Source of the DNA: a bacterium
Lineage (GTDB): Bacteria; JAMCPX01
DNA: 15,016 nucleotides
Assembly (NCBI GenBank): GCA_021789095.1
Contig: JAJYJX010000042.1
Span: forward strand, 1 to 15,016
Direction: 5' to 3'
This document shows, piece after piece, positions 645-7,843 of the stretch (position 1 is the stretch's first letter; each line of letters starts with the position of its first letter). Both the position numbers and the translations under genes were made by a program. The notes under the pieces were generated by a model. It did not search any database. It was not told the DNA's origin and was given only the letters and a program-made list of their open reading frames with translations.

Positions 645-1334
645 TTAAAGGTGCGATATACCGTCGTCTTTATGATTCTTTGCATCCTTGATTAATCTCT
701 CAAGCCACTGTTTTACGATATCTTTTGCACCAAAACCAAACGCTATAGCAAGCCCCAGGACCACTCCTCCGAACAGGATTGAAAACGCAGCCACTATTAC
801 ATTTTTACCTATTTCGAGCAGATCAAGCGACACAAATATGAAAAACACAACAACCGCAAATTTGGTCAATCTGCCGATTGTTTTTGCATACGGTATATGC
901 GAGCTAACTGCGGCAAGCACCATGAGACGATCCAGGAAATTACCAAACAAATAGCCCGCTATAAATATAACGATGGCTGCAATCAATTTCGGCAGGTATA
1001 AAAAGAACCTTGTTATAAGATTGTCTATGGGGTCAAGCTTAAGCGCACTGAGCCCGAGCATGAGAAAAACGAACACAATAAACCAGAAGATGAATCTTTC
1101 TGCAATTACACTTATAGCGTTATCGCTGAACGCAACCGATAGCCCTGCCCTTTCGCCGATTTCGTTCAGCTTTATAAGCTTGAAAAGCCACCTTGCTGCT
1201 TTGTTGAAAATCCAGGCAAGAACAAAACCTATGCCTATTACAAACAGCATTGTTAAAACATTTGGAACATAAGCTATCGCTGTATGATACCATGTCACGA
1301 ACGGATCTATGACTATAGTGTGGAGAAATTTCAT
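645..1334 (-). CDS. MscS-type membrane protein with conserved TM-helix repeats, no beta domain
   Basis: The product is 229 residues, mostly hydrophobic, with about five membrane segments near 23-42, 80-99, 113-133, 157-174 and 179-202. The last segment (GGVVLGLAIAFGFGAKDIVKQ) resembles the pore-lining TM3 of small-conductance mechanosensitive channels. The earlier helices resemble the 'conserved TM helix' repeats of CmpX-like proteins. The chain ends about 25 residues after TM3, so the cytoplasmic beta and alpha/beta domains of MscS are absent. The ATG at 1334 follows a good ribosome site (GGAAGGAG, 7-base gap). It lies 54 bases after the glycosyltransferase gene and is probably the last gene of the osmolyte operon. 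A role in osmotic pressure sensing or solute release is inferred from family and neighbours. Confidence 0.75.
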   Translation of the reverse strand: MKFLHTIVIDPFVTWYHTAIAYVPNVLTMLFVIGIGFVLAWIFNKAARWLFKLIKLNEIGERAGLSVAFSDNAISVIAERFIFWFIVFVFLMLGLSALKLDPIDNLITRFFLYLPKLIAAIVIFIAGYLFGNFLDRLMVLAAVSSHIPYAKTIGRLTKFAVVVFFIFVSLDLLEIGKNVIVAAFSILFGGVVLGLAIAFGFGAKDIVKQWLERLIKDAKNHKDDGISHL

Positions 1335-1388
1335 TTTATGTCTCCTTCCATAAATTATGTTTTAGCATACCATATATGCGTCTTTCTT

Positions 1389-3590
1389 TCACTGCCATAT
1401 ATCTTTCAGGTGCGGTTTAGATTCAATAAAACTTTTAACAATCTCCCCTATGGATTCCTCCGCCTGCTGCGCCGACGAATAAAGAGTTTTATAAACAAAG
1501 GATGCGACCTTGCCAAGATAAAGAGGTACCATTGTTTTTATTATGGAGCTCCTGTCTATCTTTCTCCCGTGGAACGCATTGGCAAACTCATAAACGATCC
1601 TGGCCCAGATATCGTTGGGAAATTCTTTTGTGTTCGTCAGTTTCATCGTATCATGATACGTGTTTTCGGATAATATCAATTTCAGGATATCATCTATTGC
1701 AGAGAGCTCCTCGTTGAAGCGCCTTTGCATCCTGTCTACATCCACATTTATAGGCTCCGGTACCGCCTCATATACAAAGCCGTACAAAGGAACGGATGTT
1801 ATCTCGCTTACTTCAGACCATTTTGACTCATACGTGTCCATAAGCATAAAAGTGGTCCCTATTACCTGCATGAACATGTTTACTAAATCCAGCGCAGGAT
1901 CTTTTGCTTTGTGGATTTTGGTGCCGAGATAAGATTGGCATACTTTATACCCTTCTGCAAGGGCAAGCGTGGAAAGCCATATATCTACGCCGAACTTGGC
2001 GATATCCGTGTTCCAAACAGGCTGTTCCAGGTATACCTTGAATAAATTTTTGGATATGCAGAAATCACCTCCTATCGGCTGTCGAAGTGATCTGCCGTAA
2101 AGTGCTGTTGTCAACGGGTAGATAATCATATTCGTTATTGTACCGTCGTATTTGTATCTCGAGTAGTATGGAGCAACAAAGTCGTACTGGTTATACATTA
2201 CAGGCCCGATCAGGTTTTCTATCCACTCCGGTGATATGCTCCGCAGATCCGCATCAACAAGCACACAAACCTTAGCCCTGTACTCGTGTGCCTTTTCAAG
2301 TATCAATCTTACGGCACTGCCTTTACCAGGAATACCTGTATACGGGATAGAAAGCTTATGGACCGCAAATGAGGGGTGCGTGGTGTAGATTATATTTTGG
2401 TTTTTTTCTCTAAAAGTCTTGACTATATCCGGTGTCCCGTCAGTCGACCCTCCGTCGGAATTAATTATAACACAGCGGTTTGAAGGAAAATATTTACCGG
2501 CACCGATTGTCACAGCCTCAAGCACGTGAGAAATCGTATCTGCATTGTTAAAACTGGGTATGCCTATAACCAAATCAAACTCTGCTTTATCGGTTAAAGT
2601 CTTCTGCGGTATTATATGATCGGCTTCCGGCTCTTTCTGGAATGATAAAACCGGGGGTCTTTCCTGTTCTTCAAGGACTATTTTATCGATCCTGCTTGTT
2701 CCTGCAGACAGCAGGGACTGAAAATATTCCGTGTTTAACTTTTCCTGCAGTTCCATCTTTTTATCCTTCTCAAGTCTTTTGAAAAATGTCTGGAGTATGC
2801 CGAAGGCCATCTTGCTTAAATCCGTCAAACGCTGATTCCTGTGAATGCGCATCTCAAGATCAACCTGTGCCATTGCATCTATACCTACAAGATTTAACAG
2901 TGAAATAAGCATGCCTATTTCCACGCCGTAACCCGTTGAGAACGGGATCTGTTCAAACACATGCTTAAATCCGGCATACTCACCTGCCAGCGGTTGAATG
3001 AAACCCGAGAGTTCAGGATAAAATGCATTGATAAGGGGCCTTGCCAGCAGTTCTGTAACCCTGCCGCCGCCGATAGGTTTGATATCTTCGTCTGATTGTA
3101 TAGGCCTCAGATAAAACCCTTTTGTGAAAAGTATATGCTGGTTCCTGAGGATGGGGCCAACCAGGCCGTATACAAACCTCGGGTCCATATTCCTTATGTC
3201 GGCATCTATCCAGACAATGATGTCGCCTTTGAGCACAAACAAACTCTTGAAAAGAGCCTCTCCTTTGCCGCTGTACGTACCAAGGTCGGGCCTGATATCT
3301 TTATGAAGCAAAACCTTTGCGCCGAGTTCCTCTGCTATGCCCTTTGTCCTGTCCGTCGATGAGCTGTCAATAACAACTATCTCATCCACCAGTCGTATAT
3401 GGTCATAAAGGGTATTCTTTAATACCGAGATAATCTTGCCTATGGTTGCCTCTTCGTTCAGTGCAGGAATGCACAGACTGATCTTAAGCTCTCTCTTCTG
3501 CTTCAAAAGCATAAGAGACTGGAGATTGGAAAAATCCTGGCTGTGGAATGTGTGGCTCTCAGACCACTGTGTTGGCTGATATTTGGTCAT
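1389..3590 (-). CDS. two-domain glycosyltransferase: GpgS-like (glucosyl-3-phosphoglycerate synthase) plus second GT-A domain
   Basis: The product is 733 residues. Domain 1 (about 15-275) has the GT81/GpgS pattern: SLCIPALNEEATIGK (38-52), VIDSSSTDRT, GKGEAL (108-113), the metal-binding DAD (129-131), GGGRVTE (174-180), GYGVEIG (220-226) and RIHRNQ (248-253). GpgS makes glucosyl-3-phosphoglycerate from NDP-glucose and 3-phosphoglycerate. Domain 2 (about 338-600) is a separate GT-A fold: IGIPSFNNADTI, DGGSTDGT, GKGSAV, DAD (446-448), IGGDF and FGVDIWL. Its acceptor is unknown. The C-terminal 130 residues look helical. I chose ATG 3590 because family similarity begins with HTFHSQDF at about residue 13. 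A TTG at 3629 would add 13 residues, some of them read from the upstream palindromic repeat; neither start has a clear ribosome site. It lies downstream of OtsAB in the same operon. Confidence 0.82.
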   Translation of the reverse strand: MTKYQPTQWSESHTFHSQDFSNLQSLMLLKQKRELKISLCIPALNEEATIGKIISVLKNTLYDHIRLVDEIVVIDSSSTDRTKGIAEELGAKVLLHKDIRPDLGTYSGKGEALFKSLFVLKGDIIVWIDADIRNMDPRFVYGLVGPILRNQHILFTKGFYLRPIQSDEDIKPIGGGRVTELLARPLINAFYPELSGFIQPLAGEYAGFKHVFEQIPFSTGYGVEIGMLISLLNLVGIDAMAQVDLEMRIHRNQRLTDLSKMAFGILQTFFKRLEKDKKMELQEKLNTEYFQSLLSAGTSRIDKIVLEEQERPPVLSFQKEPEADHIIPQKTLTDKAEFDLVIGIPSFNNADTISHVLEAVTIGAGKYFPSNRCVIINSDGGSTDGTPDIVKTFREKNQNIIYTTHPSFAVHKLSIPYTGIPGKGSAVRLILEKAHEYRAKVCVLVDADLRSISPEWIENLIGPVMYNQYDFVAPYYSRYKYDGTITNMIIYPLTTALYGRSLRQPIGGDFCISKNLFKVYLEQPVWNTDIAKFGVDIWLSTLALAEGYKVCQSYLGTKIHKAKDPALDLVNMFMQVIGTTFMLMDTYESKWSEVSEITSVPLYGFVYEAVPEPINVDVDRMQRRFNEELSAIDDILKLILSENTYHDTMKLTNTKEFPNDIWARIVYEFANAFHGRKIDRSSIIKTMVPLYLGKVASFVYKTLYSSAQQAEESIGEIVKSFIESKPHLKDIWQ

Positions 3591-3634
3591 ACAATAAATG
3601 TAAAGCAGTTTATCCGGGAAATGCAACAAGGAAG

Positions 3635-3684
3635 GTAAGGGCGTATTGCACGACCCATCCCCGGGATGGGTACCCCGCCCCTAC
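3635..3684. repeat. small palindromic intergenic element overlapping the otsAB stop
   Basis: The ends form an imperfect inverted repeat (GTAAGGGCG at 3635-3643, CGCCCCTAC at 3676-3684, one mismatch). They enclose a near-perfect palindrome at 3653-3671 (ACCCATCCC, one C, GGGATGGGT). The look is that of short dispersed elements with GTAGGGGCG-type ends found between genes in many bacteria; that comparison is from memory. The TAG of the OtsA-OtsB gene (3681-3683) lies inside its right end. In RNA it would form a stable hairpin between otsAB and the glycosyltransferase gene. Confidence 0.55.
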
Positions 3685-5804
3685 AACAGCCAGTCCAGGA
3701 ACGCCTTTACCTCTGCCTGCACCTTCAAAAAACACCGGGCATTGCTGTTTTCACCGATGCTTATGGACACGCCTGTACGGTTTACCGCTTTAAATACGTC
3801 CTCGTCTGTGACATCATCCCCTATATATACCGGCGTTCTGCCGTTTCCGAAATTTTTAAGTATCCATAGGACAGCGCTCCCTTTGTCCCATACATTGAGG
3901 GGCCTTACCTCGAACACCTCTTTACCCGTGGTTATTCTGAATTTATCCGTGTAGCTGTCCGCAATATTCCGGAACCTTTCCGCCACCTTCTCTCGGTACC
4001 GCCGGCTTACATTTCTATAATGGATACTGATCGTCATGCCTTTGTCTTCTATCATGACACCGTCTATATCTCTCAGCGCAGAAAACACCTTCTCCTTAAA
4101 TTCGTTTAATATACCGGTATCGACCGGGCCATCGGTGCCGGAAACCATATTCTTTCCGTCCCATAGTTGTGCACCGTGGTTCCCGGCATAGAGGATGTCT
4201 TTTATGTTCACTCTGCCCATGATATCGGGCAGGGCCCTGCCGCTGATAACCGCTATAGGATACTTCGATTTCAGTCTGTTCAAGATTGCACGGACATTCT
4301 CATCCAATACGGCGGCCTCCGGTCTGTCTACAATAGGGGTAAGTGTACCGTCATAATCGAGGAACAAAAATATGTTACCGCTTGCGTTATGCAGTTCGAG
4401 ATGGCGTTCCCCGAGTGCCGAAATGAAACCGTCCGTCCATTTTTTGAGGTTGTTGTCTTTCACCTGTTCCCGCAACGCCCGCATCCTGCTTCTTTTTTCT
4501 TCAACGGGCATGAGCAGCGCCCTTTTTATGCTTTCGGCAAACGTCTCTATATCATAGGGGTTCAGCAGCAGAGCGCCGACAAGTTCCTCCGAGGCGCCGG
4601 CAAACTCGCTGAGTATGATAACGCCGCTTTCGTCCACCTGTGATGCGATGTACTCTTTTGCCACAAGGTTCATACCGTCGTACACGGAGCTTATGATGGC
4701 AACATCCGCTATCCTGTAATAGAGCGCCAGGTCTTTATGTTCAATCTTTGTTGTAATGTACACGATGGGCTGCCATGCACCGGAAGCATATTTGTCATTG
4801 ATCCTGTTTATCAGCTCTTCCACCGATTTCTTATAACTTATGTACGGCTCGCTCAGCCGTGTCGGCACTGCGATCTGAACGAAAGTGAACCGTTTTCTGA
4901 AACTAAGATATTTCTCGAAAAAGAGATCGATTGCCTGGAGCCTTTTCAAGAGGGCCTTTGTATATTCGAGCCTGTCGACTCCTATGCCCGTATATCCCCC
5001 TTTTATGCCGAGCTGTTTCTTGAGATGCTGTATTGTATGCGGCTTTTTTGATAGTGCCATTAAACTGAAGCTGTCAAAATCGACACTTATGGGAAATGGT
5101 TTTAACAGTGTCCTGTGTCCGTTGTACAGAACCGATTGACTTTCGTAATCGATATCGGCATTGAGGCTTTCTTTCGCGCAGCTCATAAAATTTTGGACGA
5201 ACAGAGGTATCTGGAAACCGATAAGATCGTTTGCCAGCAGTCCTTCGAGTATCTCTTTTGCCTGCGGCAATATCCTGAATGTTCCCCAATCGGGCCAGGG
5301 GATGTGCCAGAAATGTCCGATGGTTGCGGACGGCAACGCCTGTCTGACAAACAGGGGGACAAGGCACAGATGATAGTCGTGTACCCATACAGCGGTATCG
5401 GGTCCGGTCTCTTCAATGATTGCATCCGCAAATTTCTGGTTTACTCTTCTGTAATAGTCCCAGTATTGTTTTCTGTAATAGACCCTGTCCAGCGTCAGGT
5501 GCGATAACGGCCACAAGACGCGGTTGGAATATCCCGTGTAATAGTTGTCAACCTCGTTCTGGCCCAGCCATACCCTTTTCAGGGTGTATGACGGTGCAGA
5601 CGGGGGAACAGGAACACGGCAGCGGTCATCGACGACGTTCCTGTCACCACTGCCGCTTCCCCATGCTATCCAGACGCCGCCTGAGGCCTTGAGCACACTA
5701 TCAAGTGCCGCTGTAAGACCGCCCGCCGGTTTCTCCGCATTTATGGTATTTCCCGTCTTTTTGTGAACATAGGGTTCTCTGTTGGAAACCACCATTAATT
5801 TCAT
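3681..5804 (-). CDS. otsAB: trehalose-6-phosphate synthase/phosphatase fusion (OtsA-OtsB)
   Basis: The product is 707 residues in two domains. Residues 1-465 are a GT20 synthase: VVSNREP (5-11), GGL (28-30), NRVLWPLSH, WVHDYHL (140-146), GVDRLEYTK (275-283), DGMNLVAKEY (376-385) and SEFAGASEEL. Residues 476-707 are a HAD-type phosphatase: FLDYDGTL (481-488, nucleophile D483), SGR (521-523), GNHGAQ and GDDVTDED (662-669). Together they would make trehalose-6-phosphate from NDP-glucose and glucose-6-phosphate and then dephosphorylate it. The acceptor-region motif HIPWPDW differs from E. coli OtsA (HIPFPTP), so a related acceptor such as glycerol-3-phosphate cannot be excluded. An upstream in-frame ATG exists, but ATG 5804 fits the family N-terminus and has GGAG 8 bases before it. 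It starts one base after the treT stop, so translational coupling is likely. Confidence 0.9.
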   Translation of the reverse strand: MKLMVVSNREPYVHKKTGNTINAEKPAGGLTAALDSVLKASGGVWIAWGSGSGDRNVVDDRCRVPVPPSAPSYTLKRVWLGQNEVDNYYTGYSNRVLWPLSHLTLDRVYYRKQYWDYYRRVNQKFADAIIEETGPDTAVWVHDYHLCLVPLFVRQALPSATIGHFWHIPWPDWGTFRILPQAKEILEGLLANDLIGFQIPLFVQNFMSCAKESLNADIDYESQSVLYNGHRTLLKPFPISVDFDSFSLMALSKKPHTIQHLKKQLGIKGGYTGIGVDRLEYTKALLKRLQAIDLFFEKYLSFRKRFTFVQIAVPTRLSEPYISYKKSVEELINRINDKYASGAWQPIVYITTKIEHKDLALYYRIADVAIISSVYDGMNLVAKEYIASQVDESGVIILSEFAGASEELVGALLLNPYDIETFAESIKRALLMPVEEKRSRMRALREQVKDNNLKKWTDGFISALGERHLELHNASGNIFLFLDYDGTLTPIVDRPEAAVLDENVRAILNRLKSKYPIAVISGRALPDIMGRVNIKDILYAGNHGAQLWDGKNMVSGTDGPVDTGILNEFKEKVFSALRDIDGVMIEDKGMTISIHYRNVSRRYREKVAERFRNIADSYTDKFRITTGKEVFEVRPLNVWDKGSAVLWILKNFGNGRTPVYIGDDVTDEDVFKAVNRTGVSISIGENSNARCFLKVQAEVKAFLDWLL

Positions 5805-5805
5805 C

Positions 5806-7023
5806 CTACAGCTCCATGACCGTACTGCCCTTATTGAGCATCGCATACCACACGAACAGATAGTCCCGTATCTGTCTTGTGATAAGAAAATGGTTCCGCA
5901 CATACTGCTTTGCGTTTTCCCCCACGCCTTTTGCCATATCGGGGTCATTCAGTACCTGCCGTATCCTGAATGCGGCCCCTTCCTCCGAATTTACAAGGAA
6001 GCCGGTAACTCCATTGATGATCTGTGCCGGGATACCTCCGACATTACCTCCGATAACGGGTTTGCCTTTCCACATCGCCTCCGTGACCGTCAGGCCGAAG
6101 CCCTCTTTCAAGGATTTTTGCAGCACGACGGTCGCCATCCTCTGGAGGGCATTTATGTCTTTATCGCTGAAGGCCGGCAGCAGCAGTGTATGTATGTCCG
6201 GATCGTTGCCGGCAAATTCTTTTACTTCCCGGATCACGGCATCTCCCTCGGGATCGTCCGTTGCGGAACTGCCGGCAAGCACTAGTCTGCAGTCATTATA
6301 TTTTTTTACCATTCTGTACGCCCTGACAACGCCGTTCGGATCCTTAAACCTGTCAAACCTTGAAACCTGCAACAGGATCGGCTTGTCGCGGGGTATCCTG
6401 AACCTGTCGGCAACCTCCGTGATCTCCGTTTCCGTCAGGTCCTTGTTCTTTTCGCTCAGGGGGTCTATAGTTGGGGTGATTATAAACTCGTCTATGGACA
6501 TTTGCTTTGCAAATTTTGCCACGGAAAAGATCGCTGCATCATATTTACCGGCATACGCCGATACTCTTTCCCATACATTCTCAACAGGGTTGGATACATC
6601 GATGTGGCACCTCCATATCCATAGGCCGCTGTGCCTGAATCTTATCAATGGCACCGGCTGGGGGTCATGGACGAATATCACATCGGCATTCAAGTCCAGA
6701 GTTTTTGCGTTCTTCTCGTTTACAGCGTAATGATACGCCCACATGTCATCCGTAAATTCCTCCTGCAGCCCCTGCAGACTATTGTGTATCTTTTTTGTTA
6801 TGGTAAAGAACCTCTGGTCACCTTCTATTACTTCCCATCTGACCACCAGGCCGAGGCCGTCCAGCAGCGGGATCATCCTGTTGAGTATCTCGGCCACACC
6901 GCCGCCGGACTTTGTGGAGTTTATATGGAGAAACCGCTTTCTGGAAAGTCTGGCTGAAAGCCTGTAGATAAGCTGGAGGTCCGTTTTCGGTGATATGCCG
7001 GTATAGTCCTGGAGTCTTATCAT
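5806..7023 (-). CDS. treT: TreT-like trehalose synthase, family 4 glycosyltransferase
   Basis: The product is 405 residues with a GT-B fold. Family marks seen: INSTKSGGGVAEIL (34-47), FVHDPQPVPL (117-126), WRCHID (137-142), VSRFDRFKDP (220-229, start of the donor domain), and the retaining-GT E-x7-E motif (KEGFGLTVTEAMWKGKPVI, E307 and E315), then GNVGGIP. TreT transfers glucose from ADP- or UDP-glucose directly to glucose to give trehalose without a phosphate intermediate. ATG 7023 begins on the base after the TAA of the DUF5752 gene (TAAATG), so translation is probably coupled. It is followed at once by otsAB, giving two different trehalose routes in one transcript. The exact acceptor cannot be proven from sequence. 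Confidence 0.82.
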   Translation of the reverse strand: MIRLQDYTGISPKTDLQLIYRLSARLSRKRFLHINSTKSGGGVAEILNRMIPLLDGLGLVVRWEVIEGDQRFFTITKKIHNSLQGLQEEFTDDMWAYHYAVNEKNAKTLDLNADVIFVHDPQPVPLIRFRHSGLWIWRCHIDVSNPVENVWERVSAYAGKYDAAIFSVAKFAKQMSIDEFIITPTIDPLSEKNKDLTETEITEVADRFRIPRDKPILLQVSRFDRFKDPNGVVRAYRMVKKYNDCRLVLAGSSATDDPEGDAVIREVKEFAGNDPDIHTLLLPAFSDKDINALQRMATVVLQKSLKEGFGLTVTEAMWKGKPVIGGNVGGIPAQIINGVTGFLVNSEEGAAFRIRQVLNDPDMAKGVGENAKQYVRNHFLITRQIRDYLFVWYAMLNKGSTVMEL

Positions 7024-7677
7024 TTACAGCGTCTCCATATCTTTCTGAACCCTCTGTTCCACGATCTGCACGATGAGTCTTCTCATGCTTTCTATGTCAT
7101 ACATGAACGGGTCTATGTGACGGAGCCTCTCAGAGAGCTCTTTTTCATCTGCCTTGTCACTCAGCCACGTCGAGAAATCATCCGGTCCGTATATACCACG
7201 GCTCCTCCCCTCATAAAAATGATAATATATCGAGCTGCTATCGACATATTTCAATGCCTGTAAAAACTCGGCCAGGTTGTGGGCAACAATACCGGTCGGG
7301 AATATAATGGTCGCCGATTCGTTGAAATAGAATTCGTTACCTCTCAAAGCGGGCCTTGGCTCGGGGAAATGCCCGAGATAGTCTTTGATTACGCCCACGA
7401 TGCGTGTTCTGAGCTCGGATATTTTATCAAAGGTATAGGGATCTATGATAGAGAGATGCTCCGACAATGTTTTTTCCTCCAGAGCTTCGCCCACCCATTG
7501 AGCAAAGTCATTGGTATATTCAAGGATGTGTCCTTTTAAAAAATATTGATACGTGTGATGAAAGATGGACGCATCACTCACCTCTTTAATACCGAGTACC
7601 AGCTCTCTGATTGTGGCCGCCTTCTGCTGTGTGGCCTTGAGTATGCTGGTACACTGTTTAAAAATGAATAACTGCAT
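7024..7677 (-). CDS. DUF5752-type protein with internal duplication
   Basis: The product is 217 residues from ATG 7677; a TTG at 7704 would add nine residues but has no ribosome site. It is soluble and largely helical, and built of two similar halves, about 6-101 and 117-210. Each runs F.(x)..(helix)..L..I/L..V..SSI..H...(F/Y)..G...(E/Y)..(D)DF..W......E..L.E.L..IDP(Y/F)..D....R..IV. It resembles the DUF5752 family, which I recall next to TreT-like glycosyltransferases. No catalytic signature is visible. As first gene of the trehalose operon, abutting treT with no gap, it may be a regulator or partner subunit of TreT. That role is inference only. Confidence 0.7.
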   Translation of the reverse strand: MQLFIFKQCTSILKATQQKAATIRELVLGIKEVSDASIFHHTYQYFLKGHILEYTNDFAQWVGEALEEKTLSEHLSIIDPYTFDKISELRTRIVGVIKDYLGHFPEPRPALRGNEFYFNESATIIFPTGIVAHNLAEFLQALKYVDSSSIYYHFYEGRSRGIYGPDDFSTWLSDKADEKELSERLRHIDPFMYDIESMRRLIVQIVEQRVQKDMETL

Positions 7678-7708
7678 TCTCTCGCCCCGCTTTAAGCGTT
7701 CCAATAAT

Positions 7709-7735
7709 AGAATAATATAAGCCCGAAATGTCCAA
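7709..7735 (-). promoter_or_regulatory. possible promoter of the osmolyte operon
   Basis: Minus strand: TTGGAC (7735-7730), 15-base spacer, TATTCT (7714-7709), about 32 bases before ATG 7677. The elements resemble a sigma-70 promoter with a short spacer. It lies just downstream of a likely efp terminator, where an independent promoter would be needed. Confidence 0.28.
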
Positions 7736-7736
7736 T

Positions 7737-7770
7737 AAAAAGCCTTGGGAGCTTCTTGCCTGTTTAAGGC
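7737..7770 (-). terminator. likely terminator after efp
   Basis: On the minus strand GCCTT (7770-7766) pairs with AAGGC (7746-7742) around a 19-base loop and is followed by five T. The stem is short, but the strong GC hairpin directly upstream (7770-7808) could add to the stop. It separates the efp operon from the osmolyte operon. Confidence 0.4.
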
Positions 7771-7808
7771 CCCCCGCTGTCAACAGCTGGGGGGGGTGCA
7801 GCGGGGGG
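7770..7808. repeat. GC-rich inverted repeat between efp and the DUF5752 gene
   Basis: CCCCCCGCTG (7770-7779) pairs perfectly with CAGCGGGGGG (7799-7808), and the 19-base loop contains a run of eight G (7789-7796). It is a very stable hairpin on either strand. It could help transcription stop after efp, shield the 3' end, or be a dispersed palindromic element. Confidence 0.55.
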
Positions 7809-7843
7809 ACGTGATCAAATCGTCTCCCTATGCCCGACGGGTT

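Follow-up and report, generated by a model that had tools for sequence, protein, structure and literature searches.

Two trehalose routes, a GpgS-type double glycosyltransferase and a TreT-paired DUF5752 protein in a probable bacterial osmostress locus

A stretch of 15,016 nucleotides (the window; contig JAJYJX010000042.1 of assembly GCA_021789095.1, bacterial lineage JAMCPX01) carries five minus-strand genes at positions 645–7677 that probably form a two-module osmostress locus, in which trehalose would be made by two routes and a glucosylglycerate-type solute by a further enzyme, beside a turgor-related membrane protein. The gene content, strand and order reported for these positions in an initial annotation, which was made from the sequence alone, were borne out by gene calls and family matches. 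The features, with gene order given 5' to 3' on the minus strand, are:

7024..7677, minus strand: DUF5752 (OrfY family) protein, 217 amino acids, two repeats (PF19027, 9.4e-60)
5806..7023, minus strand: TreT, glycosyltransferase family 4 (GT4) trehalose synthase, 405 amino acids (PF21269, TreT_GT1, 8.8e-53; 4e-124 to 6zj4, 2e-100 to 2x6q)
3681..5804, minus strand: OtsA-OtsB fusion (trehalose-6-phosphate synthase/phosphatase), 707 amino acids (NF011071, 678 bits, cut-off 634)
1389..3590, minus strand: double glycosyltransferase, whole gene, two halves on one chain
2610..3590, minus strand: N-half of that enzyme, GT81 GpgS (NF010496; 3f1y and GpgS structures)
1389..2609, minus strand: C-half of that enzyme, GpgSC family (37 genomes carry a stand-alone homologue)
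645..1334, minus strand: PF05552 membrane protein, 229 amino acids, several hydrophobic helices by hydropathy (PF05552, 2.2e-12)
7678..7843, minus strand: gap between the EF-P and DUF5752 genes with a G+C-rich inverted repeat, where the cluster presumably starts; without a conserved operator

The TreT gene is similar to solved TreTs along its full length and contains the TreT_GT1 domain; a narrower NCBIfam model for Thermococcales TreT was matched at 3e-111, yet below its cut-off. The OtsA-OtsB fusion combines a GT20 domain with a HAD phosphatase domain in a single chain and passes the curated cut-off of NF011071, which identifies it as a bifunctional enzyme (TPSP), and in sequence comparison its OtsA portion retains the blocks conserved in a solved synthase. 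Judged by their sequences, the enzymes of the cluster look intact. The initial annotation had assumed that TreT and OtsAB normally replace one another, and had regarded two trehalose routes side by side as unusual. Both views are contradicted by a survey of 386 bacterial genomes, mostly one or few per family, in which TreT was found in 97 genomes, OtsA in 125 and both in 84 (odds ratio 39, p = 4e-39). With the bacterium's own family left out, 76 of the 89 TreT genomes contain OtsA (p = 1e-35), and in those with OtsA the latter lies within 6 kb of TreT at 57 of 87 TreT loci. Chance is excluded for this TreT-OtsA core. OtsA occurs upstream or downstream of TreT, fused to OtsB or separate, and because both its position and its fusion state vary, the link does not reflect one inherited arrangement. 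Parallel routes are thus rather the rule wherever TreT occurs. The bacterial co-occurrence agrees with the archaeal systems, as Thermoproteus tenax and Sulfolobus acidocaldarius also hold both routes (PMC3634074; PMC7688234). In S. acidocaldarius, the TreT, TreY/TreZ and trehalose-6-phosphate synthase/phosphatase (TPS/TPP) routes are additive under salt, and treT transcription is the fastest salt response (PMC7688234). Six loci (L106, L114, L115, L119, L122 and L125; Pfam-confirmed in L114 and L122) also have a gene of the CLC-type chloride channel family close to the TreT/OtsAB module.

The first gene of the cluster encodes a DUF5752 protein, with a PF19027 match of 201.9 bits against a cut-off of 23. 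It belongs to one family with T. tenax OrfY (PDB 4cso; phmmer 2e-26), which was deposited under the title 'ORFY PROTEIN, TRANSCRIPTION FACTOR'. Of the 64 loci with strong DUF5752 matches, 62 are followed immediately by TreT in the same orientation, and the two remaining loci end at contig ends (in G005 the start of TreT is visible at the end; in G350 the contig stops 137 bases past the gene). The median gap between the two genes is −4 bases, i.e., an overlap, among 48 measurable pairs. Conservation across 53 DUF5752 sequences revealed two repeats in which His and Trp are invariant and an (N/D)DF block is nearly so. A single, weak match to the half-module, in which these residues recur, was also seen in proteins of about 1000 amino acids from about 19 of the 386 genomes; three of these that were checked (L218:2046-5015, L221:2074-5073 and L222:1476-4736) each combine one DUF5752 half-module with a receiver-like domain and an ATP-binding domain of PEP-synthase type (PPDK_N). 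The constant pairing and the overlap of the genes suggest that DUF5752 is dedicated to TreT as its partner, and favour a protein partner over a DNA-binding regulator. A more specific proposal, which we consider quite improbable, is that DUF5752 is a two-headed regulatory subunit of TreT and not a transcription factor, and that its invariant histidines could be phosphorylated or bind a metabolite and so switch trehalose synthesis. No paper on DUF5752, T. tenax OrfY or combined clusters of this kind was found in the literature library searched. A single-sequence AlphaFold2 model of DUF5752 (pLDDT, the predicted local distance difference test, 43) was unusable, and an apparent OtsA-OtsB-DUF5752 fusion in G038 (L111:3238-5535), with OtsA cut short and OtsB in another frame, was set aside as a probable assembly error. 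Genes of the sugar ABC transporter binding-protein family were observed near the DUF5752-TreT module in L094, L099, L102, L111 and L125 (Pfam-confirmed in L111).

The second module begins with the double glycosyltransferase, for which the initial annotation had proposed an enzyme of glucosylglycerate type. This assignment holds for the N-half, which exceeds the curated GpgS cut-off (411 versus 262 bits) and is a GT81 glucosyl-3-phosphoglycerate synthase by this model; its best solved match is the mannosyl-3-phosphoglycerate synthase 3f1y, followed by GpgS structures. The C-half represents a separate family, for which we use the name GpgSC and whose profile is positioned between GT81 GpgS (8e-13) and GT78 mannosylglycerate synthase (7e-10). 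The MGS_GT model is matched by the cluster C-half at 28.4 bits against a cut-off of 27 and by only six of 12 family members at E 0.01, and GpgS fits the GpgSC profile better. A DxD-type motif is kept in both halves. GpgSC is carried by 37 genomes outside the bacterium's own family; GpgS- and GpgSC-type genes occur together in 13 genomes (odds ratio 10, p = 4e-7) and adjoin in G101, G213 and G368. The two were seen on one chain only in the own family, in five genomes, from which we infer that the fusion arose there. The last gene of the cluster had been labelled MscS-like. The sole basis for this label is the conserved transmembrane helix PF05552, the only MscS-type element detected in the protein; model NF033912 reached 58 bits, under its cut-off of 100. 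On its domain content, the protein should not be called MscS. GpgSC lies directly or nearly beside a PF05552 gene in five other genomes (G361, G177, G268, G038 and G231).

The tight packing described in the initial annotation stands for the first three genes, with 0 bases between DUF5752 and TreT and 1 base between TreT and OtsAB. It does not extend to the remaining two, which are separated by gaps of 90 bases (OtsAB to the double glycosyltransferase), with a hairpin inside, and 54 bases (double glycosyltransferase to the PF05552 gene). Promoter and terminator scans of the locus gave no match above the level of shuffled sequence, and with gaps of this width one transcript for all five genes is only possible. 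The full five-gene order is limited to one small family (G000, G007 and G008). When this order was sought in other genomes, as had been proposed, it was recovered in G007 and G008, and was found to be split in the relatives G002 and G006. G002 has DUF5752-TreT-OtsAB-CLC at one site and the fusion with PF05552 at another, while in G006 the blocks lie apart and the fusion has no adjoining PF05552 gene. The same ingredients recur jointly in other bacterial families (G361, G268, G009 and G038), which supports the earlier view of a combined trehalose and glucosylglycerate-type locus with a membrane protein. In G268 the order is DUF5752, TreT, OtsAB, CLC channel, GpgSC, PF05552 and Na/H exchanger; in G361 it is TreT, OtsA, OtsB, histidine kinase, glycerate kinase, a short open reading frame, GpgS, a phosphatase of mannosyl/glucosyl-phosphoglycerate type (MPGP), GpgSC and PF05552. 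GpgSC lies within 12 kb of TreT in six of 16 possible loci, in six other genomes. In the TreT tree, the own family groups with G268 and G172, next to G361 and G092; G009, G038 and G199 are placed in other parts of the tree, with long branches for two of the three. The arrangements of G002 and G006, together with the order in G268, suggest one ancestral cluster that was later split or rejoined.

In the proposed mechanism, the first module (DUF5752-TreT-OtsAB) would produce trehalose from nucleoside diphosphate (NDP)-glucose by two routes, in which OtsAB would use glucose-6-phosphate to form trehalose-6-phosphate and then trehalose, and TreT would use free glucose as the acceptor. Some TreTs can also run in reverse. 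DUF5752 would be made together with TreT, probably via translational coupling, and most likely sets the activity or direction of TreT. The second module, the GpgS-GpgSC fusion followed by the PF05552 protein, would yield glucosyl-3-phosphoglycerate, which may be dephosphorylated by an MPGP-type phosphatase coded elsewhere, while the GpgSC half may glycosylate glycerate or glucosylglycerate. A membrane valve or sensor related to turgor is the probable role of the PF05552 protein, and the locus as a whole may be under salt control. The switch between solutes put forward in the initial annotation is a plausible idea. An MPGP-type phosphatase above cut-off is encoded elsewhere in the genome in five relatives (G002, G004, G006, G007 and G008). 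Several results weigh against this picture: no MPGP phosphatase above cut-off was found in the bacterium's own genome, which is incomplete; the MscS beta domain was not detected after the pore helix of the PF05552 protein; genome-wide co-occurrence of GpgSC and OtsA is not significant (p 0.58), only their physical clustering is; and several of the families that link TreT to GpgSC share one TreT clade, so that they are not all independent cases.

Several other explanations bear on the first module. As the OrfY entry name suggests, DUF5752 could be a transcription factor of the operon, and local regulators are often first in an operon; this is possible, if somewhat doubtful, as a Pfam scan of the protein detected no DNA-binding domain, no shared upstream motif was seen in eight related genomes, the DUF5752 and TreT genes overlap, and invariance is confined to His, Phe, Trp and acidic residues. 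It is rather unlikely that the module combines synthesis with recycling, OtsAB making trehalose under stress and TreT reclaiming it afterwards in reverse (trehalose + NDP to NDP-glucose + glucose), while DUF5752 would control which way TreT runs. Such recycling would fit the far more than chance frequency of TreT with OtsAB and the sugar ABC transporter binding-protein genes near some DUF5752-TreT loci, but T. tenax TreT is described as unidirectional, and deletion of treT in S. acidocaldarius lowers trehalose, indicating forward work there (PMC7688234). Trehalase GH37 is rare both with and without TreT and does not discriminate. Least likely, and very improbable, is that TreT serves the OtsA-OtsB fusion as an activating protein, its own activity being secondary. 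The precedent is T. tenax, where the synthase activity of TPSP needs the GT4 partner of the operon (PMC3634074), and here too a GT4 gene adjoins a fused OtsAB; however, the GT4 gene of this cluster is itself a full TreT homologue, whereas T. tenax has a TreT besides its GT, and TreT adjoins separate OtsA and OtsB genes as well.

The five genes may also be two unrelated operons that touch by accident in this lineage. This is unlikely, although the halves lie apart in G002 and G006 and are divided here by the 90-base gap with its hairpin, since six other families also have GpgSC clustered with TreT/OtsA, and the order in G268 is nearly identical. A two-module osmostress locus remains the preferred reading.

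Among known systems, the msc-gt-tpsp operon of T. tenax (Zaparty 2013; PMC3634074) belongs to an organism that also has TreT and a fused TPSP, and the likeness lies in the organism's TreT and in its OrfY, which is a DUF5752 protein like that of the cluster. However, the GT4 partner in that operon is not a TreT, and the present locus, whose GT4 gene is one, is not an operon of that type; no GpgS-type enzyme is described in the T. tenax operon, and its gene order differs. Its authors called the arrangement unique to Thermoproteus and Pyrobaculum (PMC3634074). S. acidocaldarius (Stracke 2020; PMC7688234) likewise has TreT alongside a TPS/TPP route, salt-induced there, and its genome, used as a control, also encodes a DUF5752 protein; its TPS is GT4, not GT20, and is separate from the phosphatase, and the genes lie in separate loci (saci_1827, saci_1249 and saci_0016). 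Compared with GT81 GpgS/MpgS and GT78 MGS enzymes, the double glycosyltransferase differs in its joined chain, and the cluster holds no gene for the phosphatase.

Downstream of the cluster, on the minus strand at 480–618, a copy of the initial 41 bases of the adjacent tRNA-Pro gene is followed by a hairpin-rich stretch. Copies occur in G002 (beside a matching tRNA half) and G003, two per genome, and are 92–95% identical across genomes whose proteins are only about 77% identical. An Rfam search of this stretch matched no family; it may represent a small element that is mobile or derived from a tRNA.

The locus is real, coherent and ordinary in kind; its unusual part is the GpgS-GpgSC fusion, not seen elsewhere in the sample. 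The GpgSC family is defined here and tied to glucosylglycerate genes and PF05552 membrane proteins. The genome-based reading of trehalose routes changes, as TreT and OtsAB usually co-occur and often adjoin, and are not mutual replacements. The DUF5752/OrfY family, structurally solved but uncharacterised, gains one consistent partner, TreT, across bacteria, and this constant pairing makes the role of DUF5752 directly testable.
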